Assembly: GCA_001898505.1 (NCBI GenBank)
Contig: MKTZ01000001.1
Location: 744,001-808,000, forward strand
Reading direction: 5' to 3'
Origin: Sphingobacteriales bacterium 50-39
GTDB taxonomy: Bacteria; Bacteroidota; Bacteroidia; Chitinophagales; Chitinophagaceae
DNA: 64,000 nt
Part shown: positions 1,587 to 62,745 of the stretch, one piece after another
Numbering within the stretch: the stretch's first letter is position 1
Layout: each line of letters starts with the position of its first letter
Translations under genes and position numbers: made by a program
Notes under the pieces: model-generated
What the model was told of the DNA's origin: nothing
What the model saw: the letters and a program-made list of their open reading frames with translations, nothing else
The model's database searches: none

Positions 1587-1616
1587 ATAGGAATACATTT
1601 GATAATGTATTCCTAT
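1587..1616 (+). promoter_or_regulatory. 12-bp perfect inverted repeat upstream of GH106-like gene
   Basis: Arms ATAGGAATACAT (1587-1598) and ATGTATTCCTAT (1605-1616) are perfectly complementary around the 6-base spacer ttgata. The left arm and spacer contain TACATTTG (1594-1601), a full match to the Bacteroidota -7 consensus TAnnTTTG; no good -33 element was found. The repeat ends four bases before the preferred start codon at 1620. It could be an operator overlapping the promoter, or an RNA hairpin masking the translation start. Confidence 0.7.
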
Positions 1617-1619
1617 AAT

Positions 1620-4808: not shown

Positions 4809-4811
4809 ATT

Positions 4812-4835
4812 TACGATAGAATCAAATCTATCGTA
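4812..4835 (+). promoter_or_regulatory. 9-bp inverted repeat ending on the start codon of the lyase gene
   Basis: TACGATAGA (4812-4820) and TCTATCGTA (4827-4835) are perfect reverse complements around the spacer atcaaa. The last base of the right arm is the A of the ATG at 4835. In RNA this stem would cover the whole ribosome-binding region of the heparinase-like gene; in DNA it could be an operator. The 6-base spacer matches that of the repeat at 1587-1616. There is no T-run after it, so it is not a typical intrinsic terminator. Confidence 0.7.
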
Positions 4836-25776: not shown

Positions 25777-25798
25777 ATCACACTTAATATACTATAAA

Positions 25799-27664: not shown

Positions 27665-27705
27665 CATTTCCCATCAAATGATTATTGCCTAAAACAAATA
27701 ACGCT

Positions 27706-29013: not shown

Positions 29014-29034
29014 AAAAACCCGATCATAAAAAAT

Positions 29035-30360: not shown

Positions 30361-30368
30361 TTAGGTTC

Positions 30369-37951: not shown

Positions 37952-37972
37952 CATCTATCCAACCTATTTAAC

Positions 37973-39844: not shown

Positions 39845-39896
39845 TACCGGGAAGCTGGAAGTCCAACAGGCAATTATAAAATCAAACATCAAAAAA

Positions 39897-41207: not shown

Positions 41208-41217
41208 GAACTGACAA

Positions 41218-45076: not shown

Positions 45077-48000
45077 ATGAAAAGTTTTTTATTTTTCGGG
45101 CTTTTTTTTGGGATCTCGCAGGTATTTGCGCAGGATCTGAAACTGAACAATCTTCGTTGCGAGTACAAGGTAGATCCATTGGGTATCGAGAGCCGTTCTC
45201 CTAAGCTGAGCTGGGAGATCCAATCCAGTGGGAGCGGAGTATTACAGACCGCCTGGCGGGCGCTGGTGTCTGAAGACAGTGTGAGCCTGGAGAAGAATGT
45301 CGGTACTGTCTGGGACTCGCATAAGACTTTATCGGATGCATCTATACAAGTGAGCTACGGGGGGAGCGCCCTGGCGCCTGCCAAAATTTATTATTGGAAG
45401 GTGATGGTCTGGGGCAATCATGGGGATAGCTCGCGGTGGAGCAGGGTGGCAAGGTGGCAGACAGGCCTTTTTACCACGGCAGACTGGAAAGGGGCGCGAT
45501 GGATCGGGTATGAGGAGATCCCTGACTCCAACAGGATGCTGCCGGGCAGCAGTGGGAAGGAAAATGGCCCGCCCCGGGATACATTGCCGTTGCTGCGAAA
45601 GGAATTTATGGTGAAAGGGCCGCTGAAGAAGGCTACGGTGTTTATCTGCGGGCTTGGACATTTTGAGATGCGGCTGAATGGGACTGTGGTGGGGGATCAT
45701 TTTATCGATCCGGGCTGGACGAGATATGATAAAGAGGCGTTGTATGTGCCATTTGATGTCACCAGCCAATTGAGGCAGGGCGCTAATGCTATTGGCGTCG
45801 AGCTGGGGAATGGGTTTTATTATATACCCGGGGAGAGGTATACCAAGCTGACCGTGGCATTTGGCTATCCGAAGATGATAACGCGTATATTTTTAGAGTA
45901 TGCGGATGGGTCGACAGAGAATGTGATCAGCGATGAGAGCTGGAAGGTGAGCGCGGGGCCGATACTTTTTTCATCGGAATATGGAGGAGAGGATTATGAT
46001 GCCCGTCGCGAGCAGGAGGGGTGGGGCAGCCCCCATTTTAAGGGGACTGGCTGGAAAAATGCCGTAGTAGTGAGCGGGCCGCCCGAGCTGCATGCACAGC
46101 GGGAGGAGCCTGTAAAACGGATGCAGGGTTTCAAGCCGCGCAGCAAGGTGCGATTATCAGACAGGACGTGGGTTTTTGACTTGGGGCAAAATATGTCGGG
46201 CATACCCCGGATAAATGTACAGGGAGAGGCCGGCAAGACGGTCCGGATCATTCCTGGAGAGCTGTTGCACAATGATTCGGTTGACCAGGATGCCACGGGC
46301 ACACCTTGTTATTTCGATTATACATTAAAGGGAGGGAGCCCGGAGAGATGGTCTCCCAAGTTCATGTATTATGGTTTCCGGTATCTGCAGGTGGAAGGAG
46401 CTGTACCCGAAGGTGAGCCAAATCCGGATGGATTACCGGTGATCATCGGTATCGAGGGCTTGCACACGAGGAGCGCGTTGGAGCGGGATGGTAAATTCTC
46501 ATGCAGCAATGAGCTGTTCCGCCGGACGGATACATTGATCGACTGGGCGATGAAGAGCAATCTGGTCAGTGTTTTTACCGATTGCCCGCACAGGGAAAAG
46601 CTGGGATGGCTGGAGCAGGTGCATTTGATGGGAAGCGCTTTCCGGTACAATTACAATATCGTCAACACTTACCGAAAGAACATCCACGACATGATGGGGG
46701 CGCAGCGGGCGGACGGGCTGGTGCCTGAGATAGCGCCGGAGTTTACTCAATTTTCTGAGCCTTTCCGGGACTCGCCCGAATGGGGGAGCAGCTGTATCAT
46801 CGTGCCCTGGTATTGCTACCAATTCTATGGGGACAGGCAGACCCTGGCGGAGAGCTATTCGATGATGCGGCGGTATAATGCCTACCTGGTGTCCAAGGCG
46901 AAGGGCCATATTCTTTACCAGGGACTAGGTGACTGGTATGATCTGGGGCCGGGTGATCCCGGTGTGTCGCAGCTAACTCCTGCAGGTGTTACGGCAACGG
47001 CTATCTGGTATTATGATCTGTCCATTCTGTCGAAGACTGCCCGGCTGCTGGGAAAGGTCGAGGATGCGGCTGGCTATGAGTCGCTGGCTGTTGCCGTTAA
47101 GAAAGCGTTCAATGAAAAATTCTTTAATAAGACAACCCATCAATATGCCACGGGCAGTCAAACTGCCAACGCGATGGCTGTCTTTGCAGGACTGGTGGAG
47201 CCTGCCGACAAGGCCGCTGTGGTGGAAAATATCGTGAAAGATCTCCGGAGCCGCAACAACGCGTTGACATCGGGAGATATCGGATTCCGCTATTTGTTAA
47301 AAGTGCTGGCCGATGAGGGAAGGTCGGATGTGATCTTCGATATGAACAGCCGGACCGATGTGCCTGGTTATGGGTATCAGCTGGCGCACGGGGCGACCTC
47401 TTTGACGGAATCCTGGCAGGCATTGCCTTCCGTGTCCAATAATCATTTTATGCTGGGGCATATCATGGAGTGGTTCTATACCGGACTGGCGGGGATAAGG
47501 GCTGCCGAGGGGGCGGTGGGCTTCCGGGAGATCGTTCTTCGCCCGGAGATGGTTGGGGATGTCAGCTGGGCGGCTGGGGATTATCATTCCCCCTATGGGA
47601 TGATCTCTTCCCACTGGAAGAAGGAGGGTAAAACTTTTGATTGGAGCATCAGCATTCCTGTAAATACAAGGGCTGTGATCTATCTGCCTGCGCCGGCAGG
47701 CGCCATTGTTACAGAGGGAGGGAAGCTTTTACAGGGCAGGAAGGATGTGACGCTGTTGCGTCGCGAAGGTTGGAGGATGGTGCTGCGGGTGGGGTCGGGG
47801 AATTATGATTTCCGGGTGAAGGAAGGCAATACAGTGACCGGGGCAAAGATGAAGGAAGTGTATGAGCAGATAAAGACGCCGTACAAGTATGGGCTGGTGA
47901 TGGCGGAGGACAAAAACAAGAAGATGGATTGTCCCAGTATATTTCGTAAGGGGGACAGCTGGTATATGGTCTATCTGATCTTTAACGGGCGTGGTTATGA

Positions 48001-48877
48001 GACCTGGCTGGCACAGAGCGCCGATCTTCTTCACTGGGAGAGCAAAGGGCGGGTACTCTCGTTTGGGGATGGTGTGAAGACGGGAGAGGAGCATTGGGAT
48101 GACAATCAAAAAGCAGGCTATGTATCGTTGCAGGATCTCCGGTGGGGTGGGAGCTATGCATTACAATCGTATAAGAACAGGTATTGGATGTCCTATCTCG
48201 GTGGGAGCGCCAAGGGGTATGAGGCCGGTGAGCTGTCGATAGGCATTGCTTATACAAGCAAGGACCCGGCCGTTGTGCATGAGTGGGAGCGGCTGGACAG
48301 ACCTGTATTGACGCCCGTGGATATGAATGCGGGGTGGTGGGACAATCATACTTTATACAAAAGCAACATAATATGGGACAAGGCCCGGAAGACCGGCCAT
48401 CCTTTTATCATGTATTACAACGCCAATGGGGACAGTGTAAATAAAAAGGGTGGGGCCGAGCGTATCGGGATGGCGGTGTCGGACGACATGGAGCATTGGA
48501 TGCGTCCCCGTCGTGATCCTTTGTTGGATCATCACAGCGGGATCACGGGTGATCCGTATATACAGCGGATAGGGGATGTGTGGGTGATGTTTTATTTCGG
48601 GGCGTTCTGGAAGGGGGCGTCGGGAGCTTTTAACAGATTTGCCTGTTCTTATGACCTGGTGAACTGGACTGACTGGACGGGGCCGAATTTAATAGAGCCA
48701 TCAGAGCCGTATGATGCGGAGTTCGCGCACAAGTCGTTTGTCGTGAAGTGGAAGGGGGTGGTTTATCATTTTTATTGTGCTGTGGATAAAAAAGAAAATC
48801 GCGGCATTGCCGTGGCGACGTCCGTGGATATGGGGAAGAGTGTGTTGGCGTTTGTGGATGCGCCGGATAAAAAGTGA
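45077..48877 (+). CDS. GH78 alpha-L-rhamnosidase fused to a GH43-like five-bladed propeller
   Basis: Large exported protein of 1,266 residues. Seen: a signal peptide (FLFFGLFFGISQVFAQ), GH78 N-terminal beta domains (about 20-480), the GH78 catalytic barrel with FTDCPHREKLGWLEQ (Asp502 and Glu507), the segment QLAHGATSLTESW and a C-terminal beta-sandwich up to about 920. About 340 more residues form a separate module with repeated propeller units (DCPSIFRKGDSWYMVYLIFN, RYWMSYLGGSAKG, WWDNHTLYKSN, GDPYIQRIGDVWVMFYFG), as in GH43/GH117-type enzymes. It should remove rhamnose and possibly a second sugar from one substrate (inference). The frame runs through without a break, so the fusion is real. 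It sits just upstream of the third PUL regulator genes. Confidence 0.88.
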   Translation: MKSFLFFGLFFGISQVFAQDLKLNNLRCEYKVDPLGIESRSPKLSWEIQSSGSGVLQTAWRALVSEDSVSLEKNVGTVWDSHKTLSDASIQVSYGGSALAPAKIYYWKVMVWGNHGDSSRWSRVARWQTGLFTTADWKGARWIGYEEIPDSNRMLPGSSGKENGPPRDTLPLLRKEFMVKGPLKKATVFICGLGHFEMRLNGTVVGDHFIDPGWTRYDKEALYVPFDVTSQLRQGANAIGVELGNGFYYIPGERYTKLTVAFGYPKMITRIFLEYADGSTENVISDESWKVSAGPILFSSEYGGEDYDARREQEGWGSPHFKGTGWKNAVVVSGPPELHAQREEPVKRMQGFKPRSKVRLSDRTWVFDLGQNMSGIPRINVQGEAGKTVRIIPGELLHNDSVDQDATGTPCYFDYTLKGGSPERWSPKFMYYGFRYLQVEGAVPEGEPNPDGLPVIIGIEGLHTRSALERDGKFSCSNELFRRTDTLIDWAMKSNLVSVFTDCPHREKLGWLEQVHLMGSAFRYNYNIVNTYRKNIHDMMGAQRADGLVPEIAPEFTQFSEPFRDSPEWGSSCIIVPWYCYQFYGDRQTLAESYSMMRRYNAYLVSKAKGHILYQGLGDWYDLGPGDPGVSQLTPAGVTATAIWYYDLSILSKTARLLGKVEDAAGYESLAVAVKKAFNEKFFNKTTHQYATGSQTANAMAVFAGLVEPADKAAVVENIVKDLRSRNNALTSGDIGFRYLLKVLADEGRSDVIFDMNSRTDVPGYGYQLAHGATSLTESWQALPSVSNNHFMLGHIMEWFYTGLAGIRAAEGAVGFREIVLRPEMVGDVSWAAGDYHSPYGMISSHWKKEGKTFDWSISIPVNTRAVIYLPAPAGAIVTEGGKLLQGRKDVTLLRREGWRMVLRVGSGNYDFRVKEGNTVTGAKMKEVYEQIKTPYKYGLVMAEDKNKKMDCPSIFRKGDSWYMVYLIFNGRGYETWLAQSADLLHWESKGRVLSFGDGVKTGEEHWDDNQKAGYVSLQDLRWGGSYALQSYKNRYWMSYLGGSAKGYEAGELSIGIAYTSKDPAVVHEWERLDRPVLTPVDMNAGWWDNHTLYKSNIIWDKARKTGHPFIMYYNANGDSVNKKGGAERIGMAVSDDMEHWMRPRRDPLLDHHSGITGDPYIQRIGDVWVMFYFGAFWKGASGAFNRFACSYDLVNWTDWTGPNLIEPSEPYDAEFAHKSFVVKWKGVVYHFYCAVDKKENRGIAVATSVDMGKSVLAFVDAPDKK

Positions 48878-49550: not shown

Positions 49551-50738
49551 ATGTCCACGAACCTCTCTCCAGAGAGACTTGATTATTTGCTGGAAAGATA
49601 TGCAGCCAATCGTTGTACTCCGCAGGAATTGCTGGAGCTGATGGAGGCATTGAAGCAAGGTGGGGGTGAAGAGGCCATTCATCGCCGGCTGCAGGGTATT
49701 TGGAAAGAGGGGGCTGATAAGGAAGAGGGTCCGTCGCTGGACAAGGAGCGTATATTTAATGCTATCGTGGGCGATGAGCCTGTGACACCCGTAAGACCCT
49801 TATGGAGGCGGGGGGCGGCTGCGGCGGCCGTCGTTCTTTTGTTGGGTGGGGCCATATACTGGTATGCGCGGCCAGGGAAGGGAGCGCCGGCAGGGGGTGT
49901 GGCGACGGCTGATGTGAAGAAGGATATTGCCCCGGGTGGGAGCAAGGCTGTGCTAACTTTGTCGGATGGTACGGATATCGTGCTCGATAGTACACGTAAT
50001 GGGGCCGTGTCGAGACAGGGTGGTTCAGTGGTGATGAAGAGAGATGGAGGGGAACTGGCCTACCAGGCAGCCGCGAGCTCTGCGCGCGCTACGAGTGAGC
50101 TTGTTTATAATAAGATCACCACGCCAAAAGGTGGAAAATATAGGGTGGTATTGCCGGATGGTAGCAAGGTATGGCTGAATGCTGCCAGCGTGTTGCGATT
50201 CCCAACGGCGTTTACGGGGAGTGATCGTACTGTAGAACTTTGGGGAGAGGCGTATTTTGAAATAGAGAAGGATAAGAACAGGCCTTTTTATGTGAAGGCC
50301 AACAACATGCAAGTGTCGGTATTGGGCACCAGCTTCAATATAATGGCTTATGAGGAAGAGGGCGTTGTTCGGACCACGTTGCTGGACGGGGCGGTACAGG
50401 TCACCGGGACATCCGGGACCAGTTTGCAGCTGTCACCGGGACAGGAAGCCCGCTGTTGGGAAAACGGAGAGTTGAAATTGATAAAGGAGACTAATACGGA
50501 TGAGACAGTAGCCTGGAAAAATGACCAGTTCTATTTCCGGGGTGCGGATATACAAACCATCATGCGGCAACTGGCCCGGTGGTATGACATAGATGTAGTA
50601 TATGGCGGGGCTGTGAACGGAAAATTTTACGCCAAGATACCGAGGAATACAAACCTATCCATAGTACTGCGCGCACTAGCATTGACCAACAAATTAAACT
50701 TTACCCAGGAAGGAAAGAGGGTGACCGTGATGCCTTAA
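49551..50738 (+). CDS. FecR-family anti-sigma factor of PUL C
   Basis: Anti-sigma regulator of 395 residues: a cytoplasmic N-terminal part (LDYLLERYAANRCTPQELLE), a membrane helix (RRGAAAAAVVLLLGGAIYWY), a periplasmic FecR domain (KYRVVLPDGSKVWLNAASVL, VELWGEAYFEIEKDK) and a DUF4974-type C-terminal domain (FYFRGADIQTIMRQLARWYD). Role as for the other two: it restrains its sigma factor until the STN domain of the following SusC signals. Confidence 0.93.
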   Translation: MSTNLSPERLDYLLERYAANRCTPQELLELMEALKQGGGEEAIHRRLQGIWKEGADKEEGPSLDKERIFNAIVGDEPVTPVRPLWRRGAAAAAVVLLLGGAIYWYARPGKGAPAGGVATADVKKDIAPGGSKAVLTLSDGTDIVLDSTRNGAVSRQGGSVVMKRDGGELAYQAAASSARATSELVYNKITTPKGGKYRVVLPDGSKVWLNAASVLRFPTAFTGSDRTVELWGEAYFEIEKDKNRPFYVKANNMQVSVLGTSFNIMAYEEEGVVRTTLLDGAVQVTGTSGTSLQLSPGQEARCWENGELKLIKETNTDETVAWKNDQFYFRGADIQTIMRQLARWYDIDVVYGGAVNGKFYAKIPRNTNLSIVLRALALTNKLNFTQEGKRVTVMP

Positions 50739-50869: not shown

Positions 50870-53800
50870 ATGCTTTCGACGGCTTATTGCCAAAACAGGC
50901 ATGCCTGTTCCTGGCTCTTAACCAAACTAAATTCTCCGGCAATGAAACTAACGATCGTTTTTTTGTTGTCCGCTTGTATGCAAATCAGCGCCAAGGGGGT
51001 TGCGCAGAAGGTATCGCTGTCCGAGAAGGAAGCGCCCCTGGAAAAGATATTTTCCAAGATCGAGCGGCAAACACCCTACAAGTTCGTATATGAGGAAAGC
51101 CTGCTGTTAAAGGGAAGTCCGGTGACGATACATATAACCGATGCTTCTATTAGCCAGGCGTTGGACGCCTGTCTGACGGGGCAACCCTTCTCTTACACCA
51201 TTTTGGAAAATCTTGTCATTATCAAGGAGAGGCCCATTGTGGCAAGCCCTCCGCCTCCTCCGGCGGATATAAGAGGGAGAGTCACTGACAATAAAGGAGC
51301 GCCCATATCCGGGGCCTCTGTAACCATAAAAGGAACACAAAGAGGGACTACCAGCGATGAGCAGGGCCGGTGGGCGCTGACCGGTGTCGACAGGGATGCA
51401 ACCCTGGTATTTACCATCGTTGGCTATAAGACGCAGGAGATTGCGTTAAGGGGCCGCGGTGAGATCAATGTACGGATGGAGATCAATGCGCAATCGTTGG
51501 GTGATGTGACCGTGATGGTGGGATATGGCACACTGCGTAAGCGGGATGTGACGGGATCGTCCTCGGGTGTCAGTGCCAGGACCATCGGCGAAACGCCTGC
51601 CAATACGCTGGAGAATGCATTGCAGGGAAGGATGGCAGGTGTGAATATCACCAATACCTCTGCCGAGCCCGGGGGCGGCATCAATATCCAGGTGCGTGGC
51701 GCCACCTCCATATCCGGAAGCAATCAGCCGTTGTATGTCATCGACGGGGTGCCGCAATACAATGACAATAGCCGCAGCGCGGTCGAGATCAATGGTTTTT
51801 CTCCTGCCAACTCCATGGCTACCTTGAATCCCAGCGATGTGGAGTCGGTGGAAGTATTGAAGGATGCATCTTCGGCATCTATCTATGGGTCCAGGGGAGC
51901 CAATGGGGTGATCCTTATTACTACCAAGAAGGGACGAGCAGGAAGGGCGACCGTTGATCTTGGCTATTATACGGCGCTGGCGGAATCTCCTAAAAGGATA
52001 CCGCTGGCTACTGCCCATCAGTATGCGGAGTTTATCAATCTTACCAATACAAATGATGGGGCGCCTGCCTATTTCGACGGCACGTATAAAGTGACGAACA
52101 ATAAGCTGGACAGTGTATATTTCGGCAAGCCGGAAGAATATGGCGCGGGTACGGACTGGCAGAAAGTGATCTACCGGAATGCGATGACGCATAATTTTCA
52201 GCTGACGATGCGTGGCGGCAATGAATCCGTGCGATATCTTATCTCCGGCAACTATCTTACCGACCAGGGGGTAGTAAGATATTCCAGCTACAGGAAAGGC
52301 TCTTTGAGGGCGAATATCGATGCGAAGCTGAATGAGAAGCTTTCCGCTGTCGTAAACCTGAATATGGCATCGGATCTGAATGACAGAGCGGAGAGCAGCA
52401 ACCTGAGCACCACGCCGGGCGGGTTCTCTCCTTCGGGTGTGATACAGAAAGCATTTTTAGCAAGCCCTGCTGTGCCGGATGATGCCCAGTACTATCCTGT
52501 GTATCTTCTTCTGGCGGACAGGGGGTCTTCTTCGGGGCTTATCAATCCTTTATTCGATCTTGCTCATACTATCAACAAGCGGACATCTTTTTTCGGTCAG
52601 GCGACAATGGACCTAGTCTACAAATTCAACAATAATCTAAGCTTCACCGTGCGCGGCGCCTATAACAATACGGCCAGTGCGAATGATATGTATTGGGGGC
52701 TTCAGACGGAACTGGGTTATGACAGGGGACAGAAAGCGTTCCGAAGCACATGGAATACCAAATCCTATATCAACGAGAATTTTTTCACTTTTAACAAGAA
52801 CACCACCCGATATAATCTGAATGTGGTGGCAGGCACTACCGTGCAGAAGGAGCTGGCCGAGGGCGGCACATTGGGAGGTGAGCTATTGCCTATACCTTCG
52901 GACAATGGCCTTTACCTGATACCCTTGTATAAGAACATCAGCATCCCTACTACGAGTGAAGCAAGCTCATTGTTATTGTCCGGCTTTGGCCGTCTGTCCT
53001 TCAGCTATAAGAACCGTTATTTGTTCACTTTTTCCGGAAGGGGGGATGGCAGCAGCAAATTTGCCGAGAATAAGAAATGGGCGTTTTTCCCATCGGTGGG
53101 GTTAGGCTGGAACTTCAGCGAAGAGAATTTTATGAAGGGGGCACAGGAGACGCTGACCAGCGGCAAGATAAGGGCAAGCTATGGAACCAGCGGCAATCAG
53201 GCTATCAGCGCCTATCAATCGTTGTCATCGCTGGGGCCTATTTCCTATGGCGCCTATGGCGGTGCTGTAACGGGCATCGTCACCAATACGTCGGAGAACA
53301 AGGACCTTACCTGGGAAACTACGCGTCAGCTGGACTTGGGGATCGACCTGGCTTTTGCGCAGAACAGATACAGGGTCAGCTTCGATGTATACCGTAAGAC
53401 CACCGATCACCTGCTGCAGGCTAAGACCGTACCATCGGAGTCGGGATATTCCACGATACTTTCGAATTTCGGGTCTATTCGCAATCAGGGCATCGAGCTG
53501 GAGCTGGGGGCGCGGCTGATCCAGGGCAGGGTCTTTACATGGAATACGGACTTCAATATCTCTGCCAATCGCAACAAGATACTGGATCTGGGGGAAGGAG
53601 TGGATTATTACAATGCTGCCAGTGGACAGGCGGACTATACGCACCGGCTGACTGTAGGAGGATCGTTGGGCGAGTTCTGGGGCTATCGTACGGAAGGACT
53701 TTTGACGGACAAGGATATCGCCAGCGGATACCCCGTGCTGGGTGGTTCGAAATTCGAGGGCGATCTGAAGTTCGCGGACGTGCACAAAGACGGGATCATC

Positions 53801-54325
53801 AATGATGCGGATAAAGTGGCATTAGGGAATGCTTTTCCAAAGTTCACGCTGGGGCTGTCGAATAATTTCACCTATGGCAACTGGAGCCTGAACATACTGC
53901 TTACGGGCGCCCTGGGGTATAAGATACTGAATCAAAACCTGCTGTACTCCACGTACGGGTCTTATTTCGGCGTGCCTTCCCAGAAGTATCTGCGTAATTA
54001 CTGGACGCCGGACCATAAGAATGCCTATTATCCCCGGCCTTCTGCCGCGGCTGTCAATAATGTGACCAGCGACCGGCTTATCGAAGACGGCACCAATGTG
54101 CGGATAAAGAACCTGTCTGTCCGATACAATTTCTCCAGGCTGCCGAAGTGGGCAACGAAGGCGCAGGTGTATCTCACGGCCAGCAATCTGTATACTTTCA
54201 CCAAATACGATGGATATGACCCTGAAGTCAGTGGATATGGACAGAATATCCTTACACCGGGCATCGATATCGGCAGCTATCCCAGGACGAGGATGTGGAC
54301 GCTGGGAGTAGACCTGGGATTTTAA
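50870..54325 (+). CDS. SusC-type TonB-dependent transporter with STN domain, PUL C
   Basis: Outer-membrane importer of 1,151 residues. Seen: a long N-terminal region with the hydrophobic signal at LTIVFLLSACMQISAKGVAQ, an STN domain (about 46-118), a carboxypeptidase-regulatory-like domain (IRGRVTDNKGAPISGASVTI, about 130-210), TonB-box-like GDVTVMVGYGTLRKRDVTGS, plug with DVESVEVLKDASSASIYGSR, and a barrel ending RTRMWTLGVDLGF. An alternative start at 50942 would give a shorter signal; the longer start resembles that of the PUL B protein. It belongs to a different branch of SusC proteins than those of PULs A and B. Confidence 0.94.
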   Translation: MLSTAYCQNRHACSWLLTKLNSPAMKLTIVFLLSACMQISAKGVAQKVSLSEKEAPLEKIFSKIERQTPYKFVYEESLLLKGSPVTIHITDASISQALDACLTGQPFSYTILENLVIIKERPIVASPPPPPADIRGRVTDNKGAPISGASVTIKGTQRGTTSDEQGRWALTGVDRDATLVFTIVGYKTQEIALRGRGEINVRMEINAQSLGDVTVMVGYGTLRKRDVTGSSSGVSARTIGETPANTLENALQGRMAGVNITNTSAEPGGGINIQVRGATSISGSNQPLYVIDGVPQYNDNSRSAVEINGFSPANSMATLNPSDVESVEVLKDASSASIYGSRGANGVILITTKKGRAGRATVDLGYYTALAESPKRIPLATAHQYAEFINLTNTNDGAPAYFDGTYKVTNNKLDSVYFGKPEEYGAGTDWQKVIYRNAMTHNFQLTMRGGNESVRYLISGNYLTDQGVVRYSSYRKGSLRANIDAKLNEKLSAVVNLNMASDLNDRAESSNLSTTPGGFSPSGVIQKAFLASPAVPDDAQYYPVYLLLADRGSSSGLINPLFDLAHTINKRTSFFGQATMDLVYKFNNNLSFTVRGAYNNTASANDMYWGLQTELGYDRGQKAFRSTWNTKSYINENFFTFNKNTTRYNLNVVAGTTVQKELAEGGTLGGELLPIPSDNGLYLIPLYKNISIPTTSEASSLLLSGFGRLSFSYKNRYLFTFSGRGDGSSKFAENKKWAFFPSVGLGWNFSEENFMKGAQETLTSGKIRASYGTSGNQAISAYQSLSSLGPISYGAYGGAVTGIVTNTSENKDLTWETTRQLDLGIDLAFAQNRYRVSFDVYRKTTDHLLQAKTVPSESGYSTILSNFGSIRNQGIELELGARLIQGRVFTWNTDFNISANRNKILDLGEGVDYYNAASGQADYTHRLTVGGSLGEFWGYRTEGLLTDKDIASGYPVLGGSKFEGDLKFADVHKDGIINDADKVALGNAFPKFTLGLSNNFTYGNWSLNILLTGALGYKILNQNLLYSTYGSYFGVPSQKYLRNYWTPDHKNAYYPRPSAAAVNNVTSDRLIEDGTNVRIKNLSVRYNFSRLPKWATKAQVYLTASNLYTFTKYDGYDPEVSGYGQNILTPGIDIGSYPRTRMWTLGVDLGF

Positions 54326-54349: not shown

Positions 54350-55846
54350 ATGAAAAAGCATGCATTGGCATCGATAATAGTTATTTGTTACCTGATCAGC
54401 GGGTGTAAGAAAGAGCTGATCGAAGATCCACTTTCTACGATTGCCCCCACCAATTTTTATAAGACGCAAACGGATTTTGAAACAGCAACCAATGGAGTGA
54501 TCGGGATCCATGCGGGTATGGACCTGTACTCCTGGGGATGGCATTATATGCAGACCTGGCCGGCGGGGGATTATAAACGTGGGCCTGGTGATCCCTGGGA
54601 GAATCTGAGCTATGCGGGTGACTGGTATTTTTCGGAATCGGTGTGGACAGCCGATTACAAGCAGATCAACAATATCAACCTGGTGCTGAGCAAGATAGAT
54701 GGAGTGAGCTTTGACGAGAGCAGGAAGAATGCGTTGAAAGGAGAGCTGTTGTTCCTTCGGGCCGTGGCTTATTTCGACCTGGTAAGGGCTTTTGGGAAGG
54801 TGCCTATTCACCTGACGCCTACTGTATCTATAGAGAATGCTTCGTTACCGGAAGGGGAGATCAAGGATGTGTATGCTGTCGTTATAAAGGATTTGCAGGA
54901 TGCTTCCGGTCTGCTGCCCTTAAAGAATCCTTATGGGCCGAATTATGCCAATCAGGGAGCGGCGGTAGGGCTGTTGGCCAAAGTTTATATTACCATGGCC
55001 GGACATCCGTTGCTGGATCAAACCAAATGGCAGGCAGCTATCGGCCAGTTGGAGAAGATCGTGGATCCTGCCAATCCTTCGCAATCCGTGCAGCCTTATA
55101 CGTATCACCTGGAGCCCGATTACCAGAATCTTTTCGACCTGGTGGTTTCGCCCGCTTATTCGGGATCGGGAGGAACGGCCAAGCCGGTGATCGGCAAGCC
55201 TGCGGATAAAAATGGACCGGAGGGAGTATATGAGATCAATTACAGTACGGTGGCGGGTCTTCTTTCCGCAGCCTTTCCCACTTCCGTCAGCGGGTTGCAA
55301 TGCAATGACTGGCTCGTGAACTTCTTTGATCCCGGGGACTACCGGAAGGAAGTGACGATGGTGACGAAGAACAATGATCCATTGGGTGTGATGAACCTGG
55401 AAAAGAAATTTCAGAGTACGGGCACTACCTGGAATGACAATCAGAACAACTGGCCTTATTTACGATATGCTAATCTCATTCTTTACCTGGCGGAGGCGGA
55501 GAATGAGGTCAATGGGCCTACCCCGCTGGCTTTCCGGTGTATCAATGCCATCCGGGCCAGGGCAAGGGCGGCGGATGGAACGGCAAGGGCCGTGCCGGCG
55601 GACTATGTAGCGGCGGATGCAACGACGGCGGACCAGTTCAGGGCGTTGGTATACCGGGAAAGAATACTCGAATTCAGCTGTGAGGGCGAGGATTGGTTCG
55701 ACTGGATAAGGACCGGTACTTTGAAGGAAGAGATAACTTTTCAGGGCCGTACTCAGTACTATACGGACAGGCTGAATTTCTTTCCCAAGCCGCAGGCGGA
55801 GATCACGCTGGCCAAGGGGAATTTAACACAAAATACCGGCTATTGA
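54350..55846 (+). CDS. SusD/RagB-like surface lipoprotein, PUL C
   Basis: Lipoprotein of 498 residues. Seen: lipobox ISGC followed by KKELIEDPLS, SusD core segments (KGELLFLRAVAYFDLVRAFG, KVPIHLTPTVS), and the C-terminal YRERILEFSCEGEDWFDWIR. It starts 24 bases after susC and serves as its ligand-binding lid. It is not closely related to the SusD proteins of PULs A and B. Confidence 0.93.
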   Translation: MKKHALASIIVICYLISGCKKELIEDPLSTIAPTNFYKTQTDFETATNGVIGIHAGMDLYSWGWHYMQTWPAGDYKRGPGDPWENLSYAGDWYFSESVWTADYKQINNINLVLSKIDGVSFDESRKNALKGELLFLRAVAYFDLVRAFGKVPIHLTPTVSIENASLPEGEIKDVYAVVIKDLQDASGLLPLKNPYGPNYANQGAAVGLLAKVYITMAGHPLLDQTKWQAAIGQLEKIVDPANPSQSVQPYTYHLEPDYQNLFDLVVSPAYSGSGGTAKPVIGKPADKNGPEGVYEINYSTVAGLLSAAFPTSVSGLQCNDWLVNFFDPGDYRKEVTMVTKNNDPLGVMNLEKKFQSTGTTWNDNQNNWPYLRYANLILYLAEAENEVNGPTPLAFRCINAIRARARAADGTARAVPADYVAADATTADQFRALVYRERILEFSCEGEDWFDWIRTGTLKEEITFQGRTQYYTDRLNFFPKPQAEITLAKGNLTQNTGY

Positions 55847-55885: not shown

Positions 55886-57610
55886 ATGGAAACGAGAAGA
55901 GAAGCAATCGGCAAGATAGGAGCAGGTGTGGCGTTAATGGTCAGTGGCGGGCCCAGCGTATTGGCGGAGCCTGACAAGGCGCCAGTGGCGGGGCCTTATG
56001 GATTCAAATATTTTGTAGGCATTGTCGGGAATCCTTCTGCTCCGGAGATCGAGTGGAGCGATGCAGAGCTGACAAAGATCAAGGAGCTGGGAGTGAATAT
56101 GCTGCAATTGAGCATTGCGTGGGGCGGCAAGCCGGCAAATGAGGTGATAAACCTGGAGGACATGGATGCGGATCAAAAGTCAAAGTTTGCCTGGCGCACG
56201 AAGCAGGCAAAGAAGTTTGGATTCCGGACCATGGCCCAGTTCGGGGCGCCCCGTATGTTGAATTTTTCGCCTGTGCGGCCCGCCTGTATCATGGACCCCG
56301 GCGTGCGTGAGAAGTATACGAAAATGCTGGGAGATTTTTTGAATGAATTTCCCGATACGAGCGATATCATGTTGTATACATTCGACCAGCAGGCGTGGCT
56401 TTGCAGCGAATACGGACCATGCCCCCGTTGCAGCGGGATACCGTTGCATGAAAGACTGTCCGGCTTTTTGAACTATCTCAAGGATGGAATGGTAAAACAC
56501 CGGGCGGATGTCCGGCTGTGGTGGAAGCCGTGGGAGCTTACGAAGGGGCAGACCCAGATGGTGCTGGAGAATGTGGATGCTGCCAATTTTGGGCTGGTGC
56601 TCAATCCGTCCACGAGCAATGAGGTATATCCATTCAATGACAGGAGCTTCAAGTCCGACCTGGGTGTGAAGCGGCTGGTGCGCATGGCGCTGGATCGTAA
56701 TATACCCGTGATGGGCGAGTTCGATCATACCCTGTACAAGGGGCTTTATTTGATAGCGGATTATTTTCCGCGGATGGTCTATGAGAATCTGCAAGGCTGG
56801 AAGGAGATGGAGGGGGTGGTGGGCATCAAGGAATATTATGGTTTTGCGCCTTCTCAATTTTCTGTGAATGCAGCCATGCTGAAGGCGTGTATGCGCAGCC
56901 CTACCGCGACGCTGGACCAGCTGTTGAAAGAGGTGGCCGCACCTTATGGTGAAAAGGCCGCCCCATTGATGATACAGGCGTGGGACTATGTAGCGCGGGG
57001 TGTGGAAGCCTTTCCCTGGGACACGACATATCTCATCGGGCCCATGGGGCTGGACAGGAGCCAGGATGGATCGCATGGATGGGATCCCGTGACCATTCCC
57101 AACGGCACCTGGGATACGCCTATATGGAAAAGCAACCGCAGGGCTAATTTTATGCTGACGCAGGATCATAAGGCCGACCCCTGGCTATTCGAGGATGCGG
57201 GTTTGCGGCTGGAAGACGCGGCGGTGCTGCATTTTCAGGCGGTGGAATATTTCGACAAGGCTATTGCCACGGGTGGTCCCAAAAGCGATGATATAAAGAT
57301 GCAGCGGGATTTTGTTTTCAATACGGGACGTGCTGTGAGGGGTAAATCGCTGCATTTTCTGGAAACGCTGGCTGCACAGAGCGCCCGGCTGGTGGCGTGG
57401 GACGAGGCGCAGTTAAAGAAAGTGTTGCAGCGGCTGGATGGGCTTTTGGAAAAGGATGTCAGGAATCAATCCGCCGCGGCTGTCGTGTCGGAGAAACTGG
57501 CATCGTTCCGAAAGGACCCTATGGGATGGCTGAACACTAATCTGAATCCCCGTACATATGAATCCATCTGCACCATCGACTGGAGCAAATATGTGCCTTA
57601 TCAAAGCTGA
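55886..57610 (+). CDS. Uncharacterised TIM-barrel-like protein with Cys-rich motif (candidate glycosidase), copy 1
   Basis: 574 residues; I do not recognise a named family. Seen: an N-terminal segment with Arg-Arg and a hydrophobic stretch (METRREAIGKIGAGVALMVS) resembling a Tat-type or weak Sec signal, then alternating strands and helices as in a (beta/alpha)8 barrel: IKELGVNMLQLSIAWGG, KKFGFRTMAQFGAP, and YTFDQQAWLCSEYGPCPRC. Later come WWKPWELTKGQ and VGIKEYYGF. The CSE, PWEL and IKEYYG segments carry conserved acidic residues that could be catalytic; the CxxxxxCxxC cluster may bind metal or form disulfides. It is a clear paralog of 60262-61971. Position after SusD suggests it acts on the imported glycan. 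Confidence 0.65.
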   Translation: METRREAIGKIGAGVALMVSGGPSVLAEPDKAPVAGPYGFKYFVGIVGNPSAPEIEWSDAELTKIKELGVNMLQLSIAWGGKPANEVINLEDMDADQKSKFAWRTKQAKKFGFRTMAQFGAPRMLNFSPVRPACIMDPGVREKYTKMLGDFLNEFPDTSDIMLYTFDQQAWLCSEYGPCPRCSGIPLHERLSGFLNYLKDGMVKHRADVRLWWKPWELTKGQTQMVLENVDAANFGLVLNPSTSNEVYPFNDRSFKSDLGVKRLVRMALDRNIPVMGEFDHTLYKGLYLIADYFPRMVYENLQGWKEMEGVVGIKEYYGFAPSQFSVNAAMLKACMRSPTATLDQLLKEVAAPYGEKAAPLMIQAWDYVARGVEAFPWDTTYLIGPMGLDRSQDGSHGWDPVTIPNGTWDTPIWKSNRRANFMLTQDHKADPWLFEDAGLRLEDAAVLHFQAVEYFDKAIATGGPKSDDIKMQRDFVFNTGRAVRGKSLHFLETLAAQSARLVAWDEAQLKKVLQRLDGLLEKDVRNQSAAAVVSEKLASFRKDPMGWLNTNLNPRTYESICTIDWSKYVPYQS

Positions 57611-57649
57611 GACATGTAATCCCCATTAACCATTATACAATTTTGTCGA

Positions 57650-60265
57650 ATGAGAACGATCCTCCTCTGCATGGTGCTGTTCTTCATAAGGGCGATGCTA
57701 TGCGCGCAAACGATGGCCACCATTCCCGCCGGGATGCGTCTGGTCACACCTTGTCATTATACCTACGGCTGTGCCAACGCCGCCGATGGGTCAGTATGGT
57801 TTACCGAATACAATCACCAGGAGCTCCGGCAGCTGAACAGCAATGGCACTATTTCCGTACGGCGGATGGGGCTGGCCGGTATGTTCGGCATTGCCATCGA
57901 CAAGGATAATAATGTTTTTATAGGGCTGGAGCTGGGAGATGTAGGTAATCCCAGCAAGATCATGCGTATAACTTCTGCCGGCGTTGAGAGCTATATCGTC
58001 ACCGGCATCACCCGGCCGCGGCAGGTGACGACAGATACGGCAGGCAATATCTATTTCGCCACGGAATCTCCTTCCCGTATATCGAGATGGAATAAAGCGT
58101 CGGGGACGGTGGATATACTGGCGGATGGTCTCAGCTCTTCGGCCGAAGGAGTGGCCGTGGCGCCGGATGGCACTGTGTATTTCAGCACGTATGGCTTTCC
58201 CGAAAGCAGTGTGGCGGGGTTTGTTGGAAAGATATCCGGGGGGATCGTGACGACGCTGGCAACGGGTTTCTGGAGGGCGCGCGGATTGGTGTTAAATGCT
58301 ACCAGCGACTATTTATACCTGTGTAATGAGGCCGACCAGGAGGATCAGGGCAATTCCGGCGTGCTGAGCAGGATAAAAGTGTCGGATGGAACCGTGACGA
58401 AGGCGTTGGAAGGGATCGACTATCCCCAGTTCCCCAGCAGAGGAAGTGATGGGCAGATCTATTTTGCATTGACAAGGGACAGCTGGATAGCAGCCTATGA
58501 TCCTGCTGCAACCGTGACGCAAAGTTCATGGTCCGGCAACAGTGCCGTGAAGCTGGGTATTAGTGGCGGGACCTGGGGGTCGGGTGGTGGTGATTCACTA
58601 AAGGAGGATATAGGAGGAGTGGTGTCCATTACGGGAAATGTACAGGCATCGGCGCCGGGAGGAACGGTGAACGGGTGGATCCGTGTGCCGGTGAGTTTTT
58701 TTTCTTTGGATACCAATGAGCTGTATACCTACCGGTGTGATCCGGAGCATCCGACTCCCGGCATATTCAAGCTGCCTGCTATCAATTATCTCACCGACAC
58801 CGGCACCTGTCTTATAGCAGCTATGGCTTTACGTGAGCATGTCGGGCAACGATGGCCTATGTCCAACCCCGGCACGTGTACCGAGACCGCGGCATCCGGG
58901 TTCCGGGAATCGCCTACAGCCTACCTGGTATATTTTGGGTGGAACAGGAATAGCCGGGTAGATACGATCTTATCGCCGTCCTACAAGGAGGCGGGAGGGA
59001 AGATGACCATAATAAAGGGCAGCGAGCCCGGATGGATCTATGCAGGCAATCCATGGACAAGTTCCGGGCAGACCTGGCTGGGCAGCGGGAAGTATAACTC
59101 GCCGCCCAGCTCTTCTTCCTGGGCGGAGCAGGACCTGGGGTCTTTTTCCGGTAAGTCGAAGTACATCTATGTCATGTGGCATAAGAACGGTGCTTATCGT
59201 CCGGACTCAGCACGTTTCAGGTTGTATGATTATACGGAGGACAAGCAGGTTAGCGTCATCGACGAAACCAAACATGCGGACGGGTTGTCTCATAATGACG
59301 ATACGTTCTCCGGATGGAAGATGCTGGGGACTACCAAGATCAACATCACTCCAGGCACAAAGCTGCGTGTGTCGCAGGATGATCCCGTGGGGGCAACAGA
59401 ATATATGGGCAGCGATGCGATCATGCTGTCCGACTTCCCTGTCATCGACAATACATCCCTGGGGGCTGCCGATGATTTCGAGACATTGCCCGTGTTGTCG
59501 GTGACCTCTACCGGCGCCACCGGGTTGGGCAGTCACTGGGGGATGCAGGGACTGGGATCGCAATATACCATCGGCAGCTCTTCTTCCTGGGCGGCTACCA
59601 TCGACAGCAATGTGGTGGCCGATGCGCCTGAGGGAAATTATTATGTGGATGTGTCCTGGACCTATTTCGACGCGGACAATGTCAATGCCACGAATGTGCG
59701 TTATGCAGTAAATGGCACTCTGTTGACCGGTACGGTGAACCAGAACAGGTCGGCCGCCAACCAGGGGGGCTCTTTTGTACAGGGTAATTCCGTGGGCACA
59801 TGGTCAGGCTTTTACCGGCTCAGCGGGGTGTATGCCCATTCGCATGCCCATCCTATTATTGTAACGCTCAATTATAATTCCTCTTCTTATGGGGGCAAGC
59901 GGCTGGTGACGGATATGGTGCGTTTTGTACCACAGGCGGACAGCGCCGGCACGGGAGCACGAGTAGTGTCTGAGCAGGCTTTTTCGGCGACGGGTGTTCT
60001 GGATGTGGCAGCCGGGTGGGGCAATTATCCGGACCCTTTCCGCGGATCGACACAAATAAATTATCGTGTGGATGTGCCGAAGTTCGTCTCGCTGAAGGTA
60101 TATAGTGTATCGGGTGTGGAAGTGGCGGACCTGGTGCACCAGGTACAGGCTGCCGGGAATTATCATGTGAATTTCGATGCTGCGGGATTACCGGCGGGTG
60201 TGTATGTATATAAGCTGCTGGCTGGCGGGCGGAGCTTTTCCAAAGCAATGGTACATATAAAATGA
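57650..60265 (+). CDS. Secreted propeller / golvesin-like protein with T9SS sorting signal
   Basis: Exported protein of 871 residues. Seen: a signal peptide (TILLCMVLFFIRAMLCAQ), an N-terminal propeller resembling Vgb/NHL-type repeats (about 30-300, GSVWFTEYNHQELRQLNSNG, GNIYFATESPSRISRWNK), a middle region of beta-rich modules (about 300-620), a golvesin-C-like domain (about 640-765, with VNQNRSAANQGGSFVQG and TWSGFYRLSGVY), and a C-terminal type IX secretion sorting domain (last about 80 residues, YPDPFRGSTQINYRVDVP to SFSKAMVHIK). It should be exported to the surface by type IX secretion, perhaps as a glycan-binding or lyase-like factor. It overlaps the next gene by four bases. Confidence 0.8.
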   Translation: MRTILLCMVLFFIRAMLCAQTMATIPAGMRLVTPCHYTYGCANAADGSVWFTEYNHQELRQLNSNGTISVRRMGLAGMFGIAIDKDNNVFIGLELGDVGNPSKIMRITSAGVESYIVTGITRPRQVTTDTAGNIYFATESPSRISRWNKASGTVDILADGLSSSAEGVAVAPDGTVYFSTYGFPESSVAGFVGKISGGIVTTLATGFWRARGLVLNATSDYLYLCNEADQEDQGNSGVLSRIKVSDGTVTKALEGIDYPQFPSRGSDGQIYFALTRDSWIAAYDPAATVTQSSWSGNSAVKLGISGGTWGSGGGDSLKEDIGGVVSITGNVQASAPGGTVNGWIRVPVSFFSLDTNELYTYRCDPEHPTPGIFKLPAINYLTDTGTCLIAAMALREHVGQRWPMSNPGTCTETAASGFRESPTAYLVYFGWNRNSRVDTILSPSYKEAGGKMTIIKGSEPGWIYAGNPWTSSGQTWLGSGKYNSPPSSSSWAEQDLGSFSGKSKYIYVMWHKNGAYRPDSARFRLYDYTEDKQVSVIDETKHADGLSHNDDTFSGWKMLGTTKINITPGTKLRVSQDDPVGATEYMGSDAIMLSDFPVIDNTSLGAADDFETLPVLSVTSTGATGLGSHWGMQGLGSQYTIGSSSSWAATIDSNVVADAPEGNYYVDVSWTYFDADNVNATNVRYAVNGTLLTGTVNQNRSAANQGGSFVQGNSVGTWSGFYRLSGVYAHSHAHPIIVTLNYNSSSYGGKRLVTDMVRFVPQADSAGTGARVVSEQAFSATGVLDVAAGWGNYPDPFRGSTQINYRVDVPKFVSLKVYSVSGVEVADLVHQVQAAGNYHVNFDAAGLPAGVYVYKLLAGGRSFSKAMVHIK

Positions 60266-61971
60266 TGTTCATGAAAAAAATAACGGCCCTATTGTGCATG
60301 TTATACGGCATGCAGGTGATGGCGCAGCTGAAGTATAAGGTTGGGTTTTTAGGAGCTCCTTCGTGGCCGCATACGGAATGGAACGACTCCAACATGCAAA
60401 AAATGAAAGATCTTGGGTTCAATACCATGCAGCTGAATATTGCCTGGGGCTACAGACCCGGGGACGAGCCGTTGAACCTGGAGGATGTGCTAGGATTGCC
60501 GGCCGGGCAGCGATGGACAGCAGGAGACTCTGTGTATATGGATTCCTTACGGAGGCCGGGCCAGGTGGTGGAGAGAGGGCGCCGGCTGCGGCAACGTATC
60601 GGCATTTGCCGGAAGTATGGGTTTCGCACGATCTTCCATTTTGGAGCGCCTTGTGTGCTGTATCCCGCTAAGGAGCCGTTGGATCAGTGTATTTCGGACG
60701 AGGCTACTGTGGCGCGGTATGTAGCACTTATCAAGGATCTTCATGCTCAATATCCGGGAGTGGATGATCTCTTATGCTATACGTATGATCAGAATGCGTG
60801 GTTATGCAGCGAGTTTGGTCCTTGCCCCCGTTGTCATGGCGTGCCATTACCCCAGCGGGTGTCGAAGTTCGTGAATAGGCTGGCACGTACATGGCGGTCA
60901 TTGAACCCGCATGGTATTTTCTGGTGGGAGCCATGGGAGCTGTCGGCGGGGGAGACATACAGGACCGTGGACCTGCTGGATAGTACCTGTATAGGATTGT
61001 CTATTCATTCGGATATAGCCGAGGTGCAGGTGGCTTTGCCGGCAGACAGGTGGTTCAGGAATATTGTCGTGCAGGCGAAGGGAAGAAAGATGCCTGTTAT
61101 AGGAGAGGTCTGGACAGGGGGACCTACGGAGGAGGTTGAGCCATACCTGCACATTGCTGCGCCTCTGGCTACTCTGCATGCGCTGCGCACTGTCGCCAGC
61201 TGTAGCCCGGACGGCATTAAAGAATACTACGGGAATATCCCCGATAAGGAAGACCCGAACCTGAGGATGACCGGAATATTTTTTCATCAACCTGCTATTG
61301 GAGATGATGCGGCGCTGGCTGAGCTGGCAAGGCCTTATGGTGTGGCGGCGAGGGATGTGGCTATGTATTGGAGGCTTGCATCCGAGGCGATGGCCCTGTA
61401 TCCATGGGATGTATCCTGGATGGCGCGGGAGATAGGCCGGAGCGATCCAGCGCATCTATTGACTGCGGCAGTATTGAAGGGCGCAAGCTGGCAGACCCCT
61501 TCCTGGCAGTCTACCAGAAAGACCGCCTTTATGCGTACGGATGATACGGCGCAACCGAATTTCTGGATGAGAGAGGATATACAATTGCGGTGTGAGCAGG
61601 CTGCCCTGAAGATGGAGGATGCCTTAAAGGTGGCGCCGGGTGTCAGGGACAGGGTGCCGGTGGTGTACAAAGCAGTATTTGTAAAAAGTATGGAAGAACT
61701 GGATGGGATAAGAAGGAGGACGCTGGCCTATGCTTATCATTTACGTGAGACCAATCTGGCTGAGATGGCGAGGGGCGGGGGGATACGGTCCGCGTGTAAA
61801 GAGGAAATGAAGAGCTTGTTGGAAAAAGATCGTGCGAACCAAGGGGGCAGCGCGGACATCGATGAAGCATTGCGGCTGCTGGAGAAGGATAGTGATAAAT
61901 TTTTTTCTACTTATTTTTTGCCAACGCCACCTTCGGGAAAGAAAGAAGGCTGGACCATCACGTCACAATAA
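60262..61971 (+). CDS. Uncharacterised TIM-barrel-like protein with Cys-rich motif (candidate glycosidase), copy 2
   Basis: 569 residues, paralogous to 55886-57610. Seen: a Sec signal (KKITALLCMLYGMQVMAQ), barrel segments MKDLGFNTMQLNIAWGYRPG, RKYGFRTIFHFGAP, YTYDQNAWLCSEFGPCPRC, FWWEPWELSAGE and GIKEYYGNIPD, and a helical C-terminal part with YPWDVSWMAREIGR. The acidic and Cys positions described for copy 1 are conserved. The start codon overlaps the stop of the secreted propeller gene (ATGA), so the genes are coupled; an internal ATG at 60271 could also be used. Confidence 0.65.
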   Translation: MMFMKKITALLCMLYGMQVMAQLKYKVGFLGAPSWPHTEWNDSNMQKMKDLGFNTMQLNIAWGYRPGDEPLNLEDVLGLPAGQRWTAGDSVYMDSLRRPGQVVERGRRLRQRIGICRKYGFRTIFHFGAPCVLYPAKEPLDQCISDEATVARYVALIKDLHAQYPGVDDLLCYTYDQNAWLCSEFGPCPRCHGVPLPQRVSKFVNRLARTWRSLNPHGIFWWEPWELSAGETYRTVDLLDSTCIGLSIHSDIAEVQVALPADRWFRNIVVQAKGRKMPVIGEVWTGGPTEEVEPYLHIAAPLATLHALRTVASCSPDGIKEYYGNIPDKEDPNLRMTGIFFHQPAIGDDAALAELARPYGVAARDVAMYWRLASEAMALYPWDVSWMAREIGRSDPAHLLTAAVLKGASWQTPSWQSTRKTAFMRTDDTAQPNFWMREDIQLRCEQAALKMEDALKVAPGVRDRVPVVYKAVFVKSMEELDGIRRRTLAYAYHLRETNLAEMARGGGIRSACKEEMKSLLEKDRANQGGSADIDEALRLLEKDSDKFFSTYFLPTPPSGKKEGWTITSQ

Positions 61972-62621: not shown

Positions 62622-62745
62622 AAAATATGTTTTGGTGTAGTAAAAGGTACGAAAAATTGGCATATAAAAGAATGTCCCAGGGATATTAGGCCTGATGCCG
62701 GCGACTTTGAGTATTATTGCGGGAGAGGATACTCTATTAAATAAA

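Follow-up and report, generated by a model that had tools for sequence, protein, structure and literature searches.

What do two related exported proteins do when their genes flank that of a secreted propeller protein in a bacterial polysaccharide utilization locus (PUL)? The question arises in the window analyzed here, a 64,000-nucleotide stretch of the 7.9-Mb genome of Sphingobacteriales bacterium 50-39 (contig MKTZ01000001.1, positions 744,001 to 808,000; G000:C1:744001-808000 among our handles, in which G marks genomes and L loci). Open reading frames (ORFs) and family scans delineate there a co-directional row on the + strand comprising FecR, SusC, SusD, A (copy 1), a middle protein and B (copy 2) (Table 1). 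Judging from sequence comparisons and predicted structures, we think it probable that A and B represent an uncatalogued glycoside hydrolase (GH) family and form a two-enzyme set acting on rhamnose-containing glycans. We infer hydrolase activity, zinc and a division of labor between A and B and, more weakly, the linkage and the catalytic pair.

We know of no enzymes for many linkages in the rhamnose-rich polysaccharides of algae, cyanobacteria and plants. If the proposal is right, the catalogue of carbohydrate-active enzymes lacks a family that has an evident pair design and a small, testable PUL, and the pair offers a direct handle in the form of two exported proteins to express and assay.

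Two paralogues around a secreted propeller protein

The original prediction, made by a model from the DNA letters alone, held the outer genes to be clearly related, and they are indeed true paralogues (31% identity over 559 aligned columns, E = 2e-75). All four motifs it listed as shared occur in both copies, with the first reading LGVNMLQLSIAWG, without F, in copy 1. Its placement of A and B around a type IX-secreted propeller protein was likewise confirmed, within a SusC/SusD operon in which 39 bases separate SusD from A and another 39 separate A from the middle gene. The ATGA overlap that it reported lies at 60262–60265, where the middle gene and the B gene share four bases, with the start of B left uncertain by further in-frame ATGs at 60265 and 60271 (MMFMKK); in the relative L009/L072, the B gene begins with MKK at a 4-base overlap. 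A genome scan found A and B to be the only full family members in this genome, apart from one weak match (E = 0.065) whose reading frame is interrupted by stops.

A and B belong to no catalogued family

The prediction could not place the proteins in a named family, and neither could we. Copy 1 had no Pfam or NCBIfam match and no credible match among Protein Data Bank (PDB) sequences (best E = 1.5), and the sole family match of copy 2 was to GH35 below threshold (E = 0.22, 11.5 bits versus a cut-off of 27). When 25 members of the family were compared with Pfam, seven scattered families appeared, none in more than two members, the best being DUF3389 (2/25, E = 1.4e-4) and GH35 (PF01301; 2/25, E = 0.0092), with no GH35 match above cut-off. 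NCBIfam yielded no match to these members better than 0.019. Against PDB sequences, a joint-family profile returned nothing at E up to 10 and a B profile nothing credible (best E = 0.78). The literature titles and abstract beginnings searched held no description of the A/B family, which is weak evidence given that an unnamed family is hard to find by words. On these sequence searches, the family is uncatalogued, being named in none of Pfam, NCBIfam or the PDB sequences.

Profile–profile comparison with hhalign used seven sequences for GH42 and one to four for each other family, which makes the latter a weak control. GH42 was the best of the outside profiles tried: a 31-member family alignment reached 29.6% probability (E = 5.7e-4 for one comparison) over strands 1–4, which is suggestive only, and A alone reached 25.6%. 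DUF4838, GH67, NAGLU, GH29, GH78, GH106, GH127 and SusD stayed below 5% each and were rejected as sequence relatives. Among them, GH67 (PF07488) had no Pfam match and an hhalign probability of 1.1%. DUF4838 (PF16126), which the prediction had singled out for checking, is not the family: hhalign aligned 205 barrel-region columns at a probability of 4.6%, Pfam gave no match, and the genome has a separate DUF4838 protein on a different contig.

That A and B belong, unrecognized and at a distance, to GH42 or to some other established family of clan GH-A strikes us as very unlikely. The hhalign result and a similar cysteine spacing speak for such a kinship, yet PF02449 matched 0/25 members at E up to 1, the 50 Foldseek matches listed for each model include no entry with GH42 in its name, and the Asn-Glu motif found after strand 4 in GH42 is Asp-Gln (D167-Q168) in 31/31 members, although E175 might take over its role. 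The predicted helical C-terminal part of A and B is also unlike the further domains of GH42.

The predicted fold is a glycosidase-like barrel

AlphaFold2, run on 25-row alignments, gave models with a mean predicted local distance difference test (pLDDT) score of 74.4 and a predicted template modeling (pTM) score of 0.76 for A, and of 82.0 and 0.84 for B. The barrel-like strands proposed from the sequence reappeared in both models as eight ordered strands with intervening helices, that is, a (beta/alpha)8 barrel, followed by an all-helical C-terminal domain. In A, the strands span residues 42–46, 72–75, 114–119, 160–164, 210–214, 235–239, 275–279 and 311–316, with helices only from 327 to 551, and the order in B is the same.

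Foldseek searches of the PDB ranked glycosidases first (GH138, GH20C and GH67, and for A also GH84; E = 1.6e-9 to ~1e-6), so that the structural comparison with glycosidases suggested by the prediction came out in their favor, at low template modeling (TM)-scores. The best match for A was the GH138 enzyme BP0997 (6hzf, E = 1.6e-9, TM-score 0.53 of query), whose title names a rhamnose-containing pectin, rhamnogalacturonan II, as its target; for B, the best were GH20C, GH138 (6hzg, 0.55 of query) and GH67 (E = 9e-9 to 5e-8). GH138 was a top or near-top match to both predicted models (TM-scores 0.49–0.55 of query and 0.35–0.46 of target) but shares only 9–11% identity with A and B and had no PDB-sequence match. 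GH67, GH20 and GH84 resemble A and B as barrel glycosidases with long Foldseek alignments (~520–640 columns, gaps included; E ~1e-8 to 1e-7 for GH67 and GH20, and at best 4e-8 for A and 4e-6 for B with GH84), and differ in lacking a Pfam match and in their low TM-scores; GH20 and GH84 were compared by fold alone. A glycosidase-like barrel is thus well supported by the models, and a specific GH family is not.

Five invariant acids and a separable cysteine cluster

Conservation was assessed over 31 members (13 of type A, 16 of type B and 2 of a third type, C) and is given in A numbering. Eight of the positions examined are invariant (D167, Q168, E175, E217, D258, E278, K315 and E316), and five of these are acids at the ends of barrel strands (D167, E175, E217, E278 and E316). 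The prediction had picked the glutamates of the CSE and IKEYYG motifs as targets for mutation; both are invariant (E175 and E316), and D167, E217 and E278 are equally so. In clan GH-A, the catalytic residues lie at strands 4 and 7, and because of this rule our guess for the catalytic pair is D167 or E175 together with E278.

The cysteines behave differently. C134, C173, C179 and C182 are present in 13/13 A and 16/16 B members, and all four are gone from both C members, which keep the acids. Their absence as one set fits a single four-ligand metal site. This pattern suggests that the cysteines most likely form a structural Zn(Cys)4 site like that of GH42, not a catalytic cysteine or disulfides, since they are missing together from two members that retain every strand-end acid. 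For the predicted CSE-x4-CxxC cluster near the active center, a putative metal site is favored over a disulfide or a part in the chemistry.

We consider it unlikely that the cysteines are instead disulfides or a catalytic thiol. Exported proteins can bear disulfides, of which four cysteines allow two, and GH127, a neighbor in several loci, performs catalysis with a zinc-bound cysteine. Loss of the four as one set, with the acids kept, argues the other way, although only two type C members are known. A report on the GH42 enzyme Gal42 describes a zinc cluster of Cys113 (once printed Cys11), Cys153, Cys155 and Cys158 beside the catalytic Glu148 and Glu305, and states that the cluster is not conserved throughout GH42 (PMC8573354), a further likeness to the family studied here. 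Its spacing is C-x39-C-x-C-x2-C compared to C-x38-C-x5-C-x2-C in A and B, with an acid preceding the second cysteine by 5 and 6 residues, respectively (PMC8573354). The same report cites work in which zinc stabilizes a GH42 enzyme and takes no part in the catalytic cycle (PMC8573354), so that the match of a C-x2-C pair plus two cysteines on the loops following strands 3 and 4 favors a structural site; its authors nonetheless infer a Cys-Zn role in Gal42 catalysis too, with activity of up to 229.6% with zinc (PMC8573354).

A and B are two old subfamilies that often occur together

Relatives were sought by scanning B against 84,980 species genomes, a first-look filter that may miss distant members, which gave 14 loci assigned by record title to Bacteroidota (Chitinophagaceae, Flavobacteria, Bacteroidales and Cytophagales), one Ignavibacteriaceae metagenome-assembled genome (MAG) and Verrucomicrobiota. 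The ORFs of these loci sort into two groups, namely A (54–90% identical to copy 1) and B (52–79% identical to copy 2), with 30–36% identity between groups; relatives from Bacteroidota, Ignavibacteria and Verrucomicrobiota are mostly 52–68% identical to their own copy. Later finds added an A at 68% (L065), a B at 46% (L066) and type C in L062 (G417) and L064 (G1095), at 32–33% to A and 36–37% to B. By these identities, A and B are two old subfamilies. The 25-row alignments omit fragments L019 and L020; the tree and the conservation counts of 31 members omit these and both G686 fragments.

The family is rare: the B query hit 1/395 genomes of the phylum, namely the window's own, and the A profile hit 2/294 genomes of the taxonomic family (own genome included), 4/387 Verrucomicrobiota (two previously known) and 2/295 genomes of the order Bacteroidales (one previously known). 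Nineteen genomes, many of them MAGs, have any member: 12 have both A and B, four only B, and one each B and C, only A, and only C. In 11 of the 12 pair genomes, A and B are neighbors on one contig within ~7 kb. G686 was scored as a pair from two fragments, with its A assigned by profile score alone, and for the 14 genomes found through B only the presence of A (11/14) is news.

Within A (at least 12/13) and B (at least 15/16), 39 columns are near-invariant yet differ between the two, including K214/E223 after strand 5 and N240/H249 after strand 6, near strand ends. At these columns, the 78 cells of the C members match B in 42 cases, A in 12 and neither in 24. We read the differences as A and B acting on different substrates or linkages, with plain divergence able to produce part of them. 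It is also conceivable, if improbable, that one of the two is a non-enzyme partner, either in a hetero-oligomer or merely binding glycan: A and B adjoin in 11/19 genomes, fixed residues near the strand ends differ, and K214 of A occupies the position of a Glu fixed in B and C. However, all compared members of both subfamilies retain the five strand-end acids, which would not be expected of a decayed copy, some genomes have a single type only, and two specificities account for the A/B differences equally well.

A and B distances correlate across 11 loci (Mantel r = 0.78, p = 5e-5), but co-evolution was set aside as an explanation, since shared organism descent gives the same correlation, and L011 and L012 are sisters in B and not in A. 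L012 belongs to the culturable isolate Flavivirga amylovorans. Plasmids as carriers were also rejected, with no B match in 72,556 plasmid records.

By eye, against the Tat consensus, copy 1 starts in a Tat-like manner (METRREAIGK) and copy 2 with a Sec-type signal, as the prediction described, but its use of this difference as the mark of a functional set failed. The Tat-like A start is common only to the window and its close relative L009/L072, the remaining readable A N-termini look Sec-type, and B appears by eye to be a lipoprotein, with SC following the signal, in L014 and in the members from Flavobacteria and Bacteroidales. The difference was seen in just these two close Chitinophagaceae and is thus not part of a conserved design. 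The idea of a functional set was itself supported, with the propeller protein as a member: portions of that protein also turn up next to A or B in six other loci.

Three further observations concern individual members. In a MAG labeled Chitinophaga pinensis (L014/L076), A and B group with Bacteroidales members and not with the window, which may reflect transfer or a mislabeled or mixed bin. Akkermansiaceae A proteins (L010:12301-14658 and L018:12011-14368) carry ~200 extra N-terminal residues before the barrel. Near the C genes are encoded proteins of 507 and 606 aa that no Pfam family matches.

Rhamnose genes neighbor members in several lineages

Two findings go beyond the original prediction: A and B are subfamilies that often co-occur, and members in several lineages have rhamnose genes next to them. 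Gene counts were taken across each of the 19 genomes and compared with a uniform-genome expectation, with observed counts read by hand. Forty copies of L-rhamnose mutarotase (rhaM) were found, four of them no more than 150 bp away from a family gene (G678, G679, G683 and G684; 0.135 expected within 5 kb, P = 1.3e-5). GH127-like matches numbered 69, with four within 5 kb (G675, G678, G679 and G681; expected 0.233, P = 1e-4), and GH78-like matches 140, with four within 5 kb (two in G417 and one each in G679 and G682; expected 0.473, P = 1.4e-3). GH106-like genes neighbor members in L075, L064 and L065.

Two Flavobacteria have SusC, SusD, A, a GH127-like enzyme, B and rhaM in close proximity. L011 has a unit of this make-up, and since rhaM adjoins and the nearest GH78 is ~30 kb off, A or B is a fair candidate for rhamnose release there, with two L011 neighbors left out of the scan. 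In the window, GH78 lies 8 kb from A, and the rhaM copies are far away.

Other neighbors include S1 sulfatases (L067, L071 and, by BLAST cluster, L011), arabinose/fucose-type isomerases (L071 and, by cluster, L068 and L070), GH43-like proteins (L068 and L075) and weak, below-cut-off GH95/DUF5703-like matches (L010, L018 and L068), with relatives of the latter proteins in L071 and L076. Fucose- and rhamnose-containing polysaccharides are a subject of a study on freshwater Verrucomicrobia (PMC5615132).

These neighbors also bear on whether A and B might be alpha-uronidases of the glucuronidase or galacturonidase type, removing an acidic sugar from rhamnose while other enzymes release the rhamnose itself. 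We regard this as rather unlikely. The nearest folds include GH138, with its rhamnogalacturonan II target, and the GH67 alpha-glucuronidases, a GH115 alpha-glucuronidase ranks 46 for B, and GH78 or GH106 rhamnosidases occur in several loci. On the other hand, the GH67 sequence comparisons were negative, and the arrangement in L011 favors rhamnose release by A or B, with the qualification that GH106 was not sought genome-wide and that two neighbors there went unscanned.

The middle protein and a proposed division of labor

The propeller of the middle protein resembles virginiamycin B lyase (Vgb; Pfam match at residues 40–179, below cut-off) within a unit, 20–428, common to relatives; it is followed by a golvesin-like part (~440–761, named by eye) and a type IX secretion system (T9SS) tail (793–866). 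Relatives of the propeller half (28–36%) occur in L067, L068, L010 and L018, relatives of the second half (residue 440 on; 45–51%) occur twice in tandem in the Ignavibacteria locus L077, and L072 has a relative of the whole protein (85%). The six loci with such parts beside A or B come from five genomes.

We propose that SusC and SusD would bind and import a fragment of a rhamnose-containing glycan, and that the middle protein, exported via the T9SS, probably serves to bind the glycan or to make the first cut in it. Both A and B would be exported glycoside hydrolases with D167 and E175 (strand 4), E217 (strand 5), E278 (strand 7) and E316 (strand 8) at the strand ends, and each would act by ordinary acid/base chemistry on a different linkage, located at L-rhamnose or next to it. 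C134, C173, C179 and C182 would coordinate a structural zinc and thereby fasten down the loops that follow strands 3 and 4, in the manner of GH42. Of the glycosidase chemistry originally predicted for the set, the barrel and the nearest folds are supported, and the cysteines most likely fall outside the chemistry.

Several observations weigh against this proposal. Structurally, TM-scores are low (0.34–0.55 of query for GH138, GH20, GH67 and GH84), Foldseek matches many barrels, with glucose isomerase among the lower ranks, and neither a sequence family nor a solved relative was found for A or B. Several loops at the barrel mouth are poorly modeled (49–51, 78–84, 121–130, 174–176 and 243–254 of A fall below pLDDT 50), as is the cysteine loop (block pLDDT 55 in A and 61 in B). 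The hhalign probability for GH42 drops to 14.1% with B alone, over another stretch (9–81). As for neighbors, the uniform-genome background overstates the surprise, since PULs cluster rhaM, GH127-like and GH78-like genes anyway, and such genes lie near members in only some loci. In L063 (G417), B is surrounded by GH32 genes, and the neighbors scanned there include no rhamnose gene; no PUL gene is among the few neighbors of B scanned in L073 and L066, and propeller relatives were sought among neighbors only, with no genome-wide control. Seven of the 19 genomes have no A+B pair, among them all four first found by the A profile (G417, G897, G909 and G1095); the absence of A from G417, a genome rated 100% complete that carries B and C, means that B does not need A.

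More speculatively, and in our judgment with little likelihood, two cooperating subfamilies of a new family might work with the propeller, itself then a glycan lyase akin to virginiamycin B lyase, as a mobile machine of three parts. Such a machine would open a rhamnose linkage beyond the reach of every known rhamnosidase family and would have passed as a unit between Bacteroidota, Ignavibacteria and Verrucomicrobiota.

Other features of the window

Table 1 Coordinates of the A/B locus, its candidate functional residues and subfamily C (window positions unless a locus is named)
Feature	Position	Strand	Basis or context
GH78-type alpha-L-rhamnosidase, upstream	45077..48877	+	family scan
FecR anti-sigma factor, ahead of SusC	49551..50738	+	family scan
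SusC-like TonB-dependent receptor	50870..54325	+	family scan
SusD-like lipoprotein	54350..55846	+	family scan
Copy 1, subfamily A, 574 aa: Tat-like signal, predicted (beta/alpha)8 barrel ~40-320, helical C-terminal part ~327-551	55886..57610	+	ORF, alignment, AlphaFold2
A: C134, first cluster cysteine	56285..56287	+	29/31
A: invariant D167 just after strand 4, candidate acid/base	56384..56386	+	model, conservation
A: C173, C179, C182 with invariant E175 between (CSEYGPCPRC)	56402..56431	+	conservation
A: invariant E217 after strand 5	56534..56536	+	model, conservation
A: invariant E278 in strand 7, candidate nucleophile or base	56717..56719	+	model, conservation
A: invariant K315-E316, end of strand 8	56828..56833	+	model, conservation
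Middle protein, 871 aa: Vgb-like propeller, golvesin-like part, T9SS tail	57650..60265	+	ORF, family scans
Copy 2, subfamily B, 569 aa: Sec-type signal, predicted architecture as A	60262..61971	+	ORF, alignment, AlphaFold2
B: C143, first cluster cysteine	60688..60690	+	conservation
B: D176, C182, E184, C188, C191 block (DQNAWLCSEFGPCPRC)	60787..60834	+	conservation
B: invariant E226 after strand 5	60937..60939	+	model, conservation
B: invariant E282 in strand 7	61105..61107	+	model, conservation
B: invariant E321, end of strand 8	61222..61224	+	model, conservation
Subfamily C genes, without cysteine cluster	L062:7795-9582; L064:8918-10654		near GH78 or GH106 genes

Past copy 2, a BNR_2 protein (62695–63999; L069:696-3188) runs beyond the window into an esterase-like region, making it a fusion of a sialidase fold and an esterase; the latter region matches fungal glucuronyl esterase and AXE1 models. 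Elsewhere in the window, a GH106 rhamnosidase adjoins a heparinase II/III-like protein (1599–6775), another rhamnose/uronate-looking pair. Two similar tandem PULs (22333–32471 and 34496–43317) each comprise SusC (by position), SusD, an NHL/TIG protein and NAGLU, and one adds a GH29-type fucosidase. Finally, an AbiEi/AbiEii-type toxin–antitoxin pair lies at 6893–8948, its AbiEi match just under the cut-off.

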